From contig CANRBX010000001.1 in the NCBI GenBank assembly GCA_947628955.1, forward strand, positions 67,931-131,930: a stretch of DNA of 64,000 bases, read 5' to 3'. The notes below the pieces were generated by a model. It made no database searches. It was not told the DNA's origin and saw nothing but the letters and a program-made list of their open reading frames with translations. Below are positions 28,944 to 55,749 of the stretch, in pieces. Each line of letters begins with the position of its first letter. Positions within the stretch are counted from its first letter, which is position 1. The stretch comes from an uncultured Lachnospiraceae bacterium. Lineage in GTDB: Bacteria > Bacillota > Clostridia > Lachnospirales > Lachnospiraceae. Both the position numbers and the translations under genes were made by a program.

Positions 28944-28979
28944 CGCTTCTTCCTCATGTTTGGACTTTTGACCCTGGCA
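28944..28979. repeat. partial/internally deleted derivative of the 176-bp dispersed element
   Basis: cttcctcatgtttg|gacttttgaccctggcatgatg joins two segments that are ~40 nt apart in the full element immediately to its right. Confidence 0.6.
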
Positions 28980-28988
28980 TGATGTTAA

Positions 28989-29164
28989 AGTCAAATGATG
29001 CCATACGGATTGTTCCGTGCTTCGCACTCCCACAATCCTGCCCAACATTCGGAATCCATGGGGCCCCTGCCCCATTTCTTCCTCATGTTTGGGCGGGTCA
29101 CTAAGTCATAAAACCACTTCCGCGCAAGCGCTTCGTGGTTTATGACTTTTGACCCTGGCATCAT
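28989..29164. repeat. 176-bp dispersed structured element, copy 1
   Basis: agtcaaatgatgccatacggattg...gacttttgaccctggcatcat; same length as copy at 55192-55367 with 6 differences; internal hairpins; ATGATGCCA ends inverted. Confidence 0.95.
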
Positions 29165-54871: not shown

Positions 54872-55129
54872 TCACCTCCGCAGCCGCCAGGGTTTTGAAT
54901 TTTCCGAAACCCGGATAAAATGGATCTCCGCGATCCGATCCTGCTCGTCCCCGACAAAATCCCTCATGTAGTCGGAACCCTCCGCGAGCATGCACGCCTC
55001 GACGATATCGTCGGCCCTGCTCGGGCGGTTCCCGAGGTAAAGATGTGTCCCTTCTCTTTCGTAATCCCGGAGCTCTCTCCACAGAGAGTATGCCCGGTTT
55101 TCAGGTCTTCCTTGTCTCTTTTTCTCCAA
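54872..55129 (-). CDS. small hypothetical protein
   Basis: MEKKRQGRPENRAYSLWRELRDYEREGTHLYLGNRPSRADDIVEACML; TTG start at 55129 with GGAGG 6 nt upstream. Confidence 0.55.
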   Translation of the reverse strand: MEKKRQGRPENRAYSLWRELRDYEREGTHLYLGNRPSRADDIVEACMLAEGSDYMRDFVGDEQDRIAEIHFIRVSENSKPWRLRR

Positions 55130-55191
55130 TTTTTTCCTCCGGCGCTGCAAATTAAACTGAGAGGTGCGATCGTGATATATTATGACGTTGG

Positions 55192-55367
55192 AGTCAAATG
55201 ATGCCATACGGATTGTTCCGTGCTACGCACTCCCACAATCCTGCCCAACATTCGGAATTCATGGGGCCCCTGCCCCACTTCTTCCTCATGTTTGGGCGGG
55301 TCATTAAGTCATAAAACCACTTCTGCGCAAGCGCATCGTGGTTTATGACTTTTGACCCTGGCATCAT
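55192..55367. repeat. 176-bp dispersed structured element, copy 2
   Basis: Aligns gap-free with 28989-29164 with 6 substitutions. Confidence 0.95.
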
Positions 55368-55749
55368 ATTATTACCAGTCTATGCAGCGCGGACTGCAAT
55401 AATGTCAGAATCAAATGCGCCGTGCGGATGGCCCCATACTGCGCCCTCCGGCCCATTTAATAAATTATTTACTTGCGCAAAAAACAGAAATTGATTATAA
55501 TGCGTAAAAGAAGCCAGAAAGATATGTGGGAACATTTCGCCGCGGGAATGTACAGTGCATGGTGCAGAAGACGGCTGCCTCGCTTCCCTCCTTTCCTCCG
55601 GAATATAAAAACAGGCGGATGAACCTCACATACTTTCTGATGTATATTATAATTAATATGTTGAAATTTTTCAAGTCTTTTTTTCAAAAAATATGCCCTG
55701 TTTTCGCACAGGTTGGAACGGAATGGCGCAACTGTAACATTTTATCCAC

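Follow-up and report, generated by a model that had tools for sequence, protein, structure and literature searches.

RF01699 (Clostridiales-1 RNA) repeats of a Lachnospiraceae genome read as MITE-type elements with IS1182-related ends

The window analyzed here, a stretch of 64,000 nucleotides from an uncultured Lachnospiraceae bacterium, contains two copies of an intergenic repeat with several hairpins, and the question arises whether such a repeat is a mobile element of the MITE or the REP/BIME kind or a member of a family of structured RNAs, which were the options left by a sequence-only reading of this DNA. As that reading had stated, positions 28989-29164 and 55192-55367 align without gaps and with 6 differences (97% identity, E 1.5e-79), and the flanks of the two stretches do not align with each other. 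The stems it named were present, together with the change between TTC and TAC in a loop and the replacement of a C/T mismatch by a T-A pair. The 176-bp repeat was borne out, but its extent had to be corrected. The full unit comprises 184 bp (28980-29163 and 55183-55366) because an outer inverted repeat sits to the left of the previously proposed start. The 184-nt units have fold energies of -90.9 kcal/mol (copy 1) and -95.0 kcal/mol (copy 2), corresponding to z = -9.6 and -9.7, respectively, against dinucleotide shuffles. Gap-free alignment, blastn match, and fold z-scores rule out a chance similarity of the two copies.

A repeat of the RF01699 family

Both copies match the whole Rfam 15 model RF01699 (Clostridiales-1 RNA; model positions 1-166) on the minus strand, each with a score of 141.9 bits against a gathering cut-off of 48. 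The matches, obtained with the Rfam model and for copy 1 also by alignment, extend from 28996 to 29163 and from 55199 to 55366. RF01699 was described by Weinberg et al. 2010 (PMC2864571) from Clostridiales and the human gut, and the table row for the family in that paper lists it as likely structured, not cis-regulatory, and not a riboswitch. Compared with the family described there, both window copies display a full-length match and the same fold. The structured-RNA option was therefore correct in that the repeat belongs to a known family, and by the same match the repeat is, as a sequence family, already catalogued and not new.

The window's own assembly (G000) is a draft of 3.5 Mb in 136 contigs. 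Instead of only two copies, it contains 23 RF01699 matches above the cut-off, which rules out a simple recent duplication. Using blastn, 46 matches including partial ones were obtained in this assembly, many of them consisting of the 3' hairpin end or the 5' end alone. RF01699 occurs above the cut-off in 33 of 60 genomes (own genome included) and, at E 0.001, in 3 of 25 genera. Positive genomes have 1 to 38 copies each, and relatives overall 0 to 38, a very uneven distribution such as a mobile element gives. No match to an RF01699-like element was obtained in the plasmid sequences searched. Eleven weak-to-moderate RF01699-like matches occur in short unannotated fecal records named 'Bacteriophage sp.' (including MT837342.1 and MT837314.1), which could be bacterial DNA.

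The neighbors of copy 1 are pth on one side and an ABC-type solute-binding gene on the other, and copy 2 is located upstream of mecA beside a small unclassified frame. This frame (window 54872-55108, minus strand) has no Pfam match and extends back into the end of the element. None of 34 copies lies inside a called gene, and the distance to a gene is often <50 bp. The orientation of these copies to their neighbors is mixed (12 ++, 10 --, 5 -+, and 5 +-).

Element ends, target duplications, and insertion sequences

Side-by-side comparison of flanks demonstrated that conservation exceeds the end of the Rfam model, with TGATGCCAGGGTCAAA at one end and TTTGACCCCAACATCA at the other end outside the closing stem P1. 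The 184-bp unit is bounded by imperfect terminal inverted repeats of 16 bp (TGATGyynGGGTCAAA). The left terminal repeat also provides the 5' strand of P1 as well as that of arm 1, and at the right end complementarity to the left end occurs twice in a row, first in the 3' strand of P1 and then in the outer terminal repeat. Copy 1, delimited like copy 2 by flank comparison and fold, occupies 28980-29163 on the minus strand in RNA orientation, with the left repeat TGATGCCAGGGTCAAA at 29148-29163 (minus strand) and a diverged right repeat, TGATGTTAAAGTCAAA, at 28980-28995 (plus strand). It is abutted by a 34-bp remnant of another copy (28946-28979, minus strand), recognized by flank comparison and by a blastn match to C1:96868-96893, and because of this remnant copy 1 lacks a target duplication. 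Copy 2 (55183-55366, minus strand) carries TGATGCCAGGGTCAAA at 55351-55366 (minus strand) and TGACGTTGGAGTCAAA at 55183-55198 (plus strand) and is flanked by the target duplication TATTA at 55178-55182 on the left and 55367-55371 on the right.

A search by element ends located 36 complete elements, which measure 63-267 bp and in most cases 184 bp. Of these, 21 show exact target duplications of at least 5 bp (5-6 bp), most of which read TNNNA, while the remaining 15 have no clean duplication. When left flanks were paired with the right flanks of other elements as a control, duplications occurred in 39 of 1260 pairs (3.1%). A joined-flank search of the genus identified an empty counterpart for a member of a sister subfamily with TGATAC ends (L149): the occupied site at G030:C132 has TTATAA on each side, and the empty site has a single TTATAA in three other genomes (G064, G013, and G012). 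The flanks of G030:C132 are split in G065:C28 as well. This precise empty site with a duplication belongs to the sister subfamily and not to the subfamily of the window. Empty counterparts also exist for L169 and L079, with a short duplication and no clear duplication, respectively. The element is absent from the pth loci of 11 relatives. Relatives share pth with the window at 71-80% but do not share the intergenic DNA.

Several further observations concern the copies and their surroundings. Mini forms of 61-119 bp (G000:C5:12582-12642, L022, L092:114-232, L132, and L134) have lost some or all of the interior but not the terminal repeats, and some of them are flanked by target duplications. 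Several RF01699 elements of the window's own genome (L040, L041, L043, L047, L049, L058, and L060) contain, at varying points, another palindromic repeat, GGTGCTGAGCGCCAGTGGCGCTCGTTCAGCACCGACCGAAGCGGAGCG, of about 50 bp, which L047 has twice. The core motif of this repeat is present about 26 times in that genome. Two further dispersed repeats of the genus are found in the flanks of copies. At the 3' end of one gene, two species (G009 and G032) have what seems to be a shared insertion (L159 and L201), so that some insertions appear to be old and kept.

A pattern search for the terminal motif in inward-facing arrangement was performed on 47 same-genus genomes. Two loci, G006:C273 and G067:C336, have such motifs about 1.87 kb apart, and the insertion sequences enclosed have one long frame each, of 536-553 amino acids. 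The ends of L124 and L125 are TGATGCTGGGGTCAAA and TGATGTCGGGGTCAAA, as in the element, and those of L139 are variants. The encoded transposase has the Pfam domains DDE_Tnp_1_6 and DUF772. Its best NCBIfam match is IS1182 (4e-36, 125 bits), which is below the cut-off of 270, and we therefore refer to it as IS1182-related only. At G063:C82, a 60%-identical transposase is enclosed by the terminal motif at its bounds with TCTGTA on both flanks, and a degraded insertion sequence at G006:C103 has TTAAGCA at its flanks. At 1e-20, the transposase was detected in 4 of the 47 genomes, and no homologue was found in the window's own draft assembly. Thus, the transposase with matching terminal repeats suggested as a check exists in same-genus genomes but not in the genome's own assembly; a same-genome autonomous partner is, however, not strictly required for a stranded MITE. 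The MITE-like option gains support from the 184-bp unit with its terminal repeats, the target duplications, and the insertion sequences with matching ends. The shared ends suggest that the transposase would act on the 184-bp element.

MITEs derived from IS1182-family elements are already known as such; the ISMac2-related elements of 160-169 bp (PMC3852290), for example, are likewise short multi-copy units with ends resembling those of an IS1182-type element and with short or no direct repeats. The window type differs in its duplications of 5-7 bp and in its interior, a covarying RNA fold common to subfamilies. IS1272 of the IS1182 family (PMC5678879) is similar in its related transposase family and its 16-bp terminal repeats, but is reported to replace stem-loop targets without duplications, whereas the window type duplicates targets resembling TNNNA. 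The BOX and RUP repeats of pneumococci (PMC3049150) are alike by description, being interspersed, intergenic, modular, and foldable.

Other RF01699 subfamilies have kept the fold and differ in their ends. In subfamilies lacking the terminal inverted repeats, for which insertion into palindromes of the kind reported for IS1272 was considered, flanks are complementary over at least 4 bases in 14% of cases compared to 0.8% of controls, but much of this looks like a P1 longer than modelled. A third subfamily, represented by L157 (G035), is absent without a duplication from G009:C98 and G064:C3, indicating that it was gained or lost in another way. In L155-L157, L173, L175, L178, L186, L200, L202, and similar copies, P1 is for instance TAAAAG or GAAAGC; TTTAC precedes these copies, and an additional hairpin resembling GGTGCCTGCGAAGCAGGCATGAAAGTTTA comes after them.

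RNA fold and rival explanations

The RF01699 fold consists of the closing stem P1 and three arms, of which arm 1 mostly has a CUUG loop and arm 2 a predicted tandem-GA internal loop. In 30 diverse copies, two-sided (compensatory) changes occur at 25 of 30 predicted pairs. Ninety-five percent of cells are paired, and sliding the partner strand reduced this value to 27-47% (at most 46.5%). For P1, which has 26 different stem starts, pairing reaches 98% compared to 60% in controls. The motifs ATGARNA, GAAT, and GCTTGC are present in 91, 87, and 63 of 93 copies, respectively, and the natural reading of the first two is a tandem G-A mismatch predicted between invariant A-U/U-A and G-C pairs. G-U pairs are few overall, and on the RF01699 strand they slightly outnumber A-C in P1 and P4 (14 vs 3). 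These counts are suggestive; they favor, without proving it, selection that acts on the RNA and not on a hairpin in the DNA. Taken together, the strong covariation, the tandem-GA motif, and the mostly CUUG loop are more than a plain palindromic MITE needs.

These features would suit an amplified family of trans-acting small RNA genes whose mobility is incidental, as would the conserved unpaired motifs and the excess of G-U in P1 and P4. However, such genes would hardly vary between 0 and 38 copies among relatives, carry terminal repeats and target duplications, or occur in numerous partial and nested forms; in addition, promoter-like matches upstream of copy 1 are weak and G-U pairs are scarce, and we regard this explanation as improbable. 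Another rival is a cis-acting signal, such as a terminator, a riboswitch, or a leader of another kind, retained at certain genes. The intergenic position of the copies, often <50 bp from a gene, and the direction of the Rfam strand at copy 1 towards pth would agree with it, but copies occur in all four relative orientations, we saw no neighbor genes common to them, the RNA strand is devoid of a terminator-like hairpin with a T run, and the cited table row of Weinberg et al. 2010 scores the family as not cis-regulatory. Based on the lack of orientation bias, a cis-regulatory role was rejected, and its probability is very low.

The REP/BIME-like option, an element of this or the IS200/IS605 type moved by a Y1 transposase, has in its favor the presence of hairpins and one subfamily that is preceded by TTTAC and inserted without duplication. 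No Y1 (RAYT-type) transposase matched in the window's own assembly at 1e-5, nor was one found in G031, G035, or G012, all of which have copies. Rfam scans of seven Y1 loci revealed no RF01699, the pattern search yielded a single weak hairpin match in 30, TTTAC is missing from the empty site of L157, and the window type carries terminal repeats and duplications. Since neither the Y1 search nor the pattern search nor the scan of Y1 loci provided a link, this origin was rejected for the window type as very improbable.

Proposed mechanism and meaning

We consider it probable that the repeat is a MITE with the RF01699 fold inside. The 184-bp unit with its imperfect 16-bp terminal inverted repeats would be a DNA element that is not autonomous; an IS1182-related insertion sequence would supply, in trans, the transposase that moves it, and insertion would duplicate about 5-7 bp of the target, mostly TNNNA. 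Since the same ends occur on same-genus insertion sequences and the transposase is absent from the genome's own assembly, the window copies are probably of MITE type and stranded without a transposase. A transposase of this type would have moved them, and they would now be immobile in their own genome. Not every RF01699 element moves by the IS1182-type route with duplication, because the L157 subfamily was inserted without one.

Why the fold has been kept can be answered with low confidence. On read-through, a compact and self-contained RNA domain might make insertion near genes cheap, so that well-folding copies would survive, an explanation that we give somewhat less than an even chance. More tentatively still, RF01699 could be a mobile RNA domain, with one covarying fold combined with different ends and insertion modes and with the RNA raising the survival of its carrier.

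The new part of these results is that RF01699 in this genus is read as making up the body of elements of MITE type whose ends are IS1182-related. In the main text of Weinberg et al. 2010 (PMC2864571), mobility of the family is not mentioned and the terms transposable, mobile, and selfish do not occur, and on the basis of that text we found no earlier description of its spread as a mobile element. RF01699, which is filed as a small RNA gene, would need to be reinterpreted as forming the body of such an element, and annotations that count these loci as sRNA genes would then be misleading. The family may also offer a case for asking why an elaborate RNA fold is retained by the passenger of a transposon. 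This case is testable, since one fold is shared by subfamilies that differ in their ends and since related genomes provide both occupied and empty sites.
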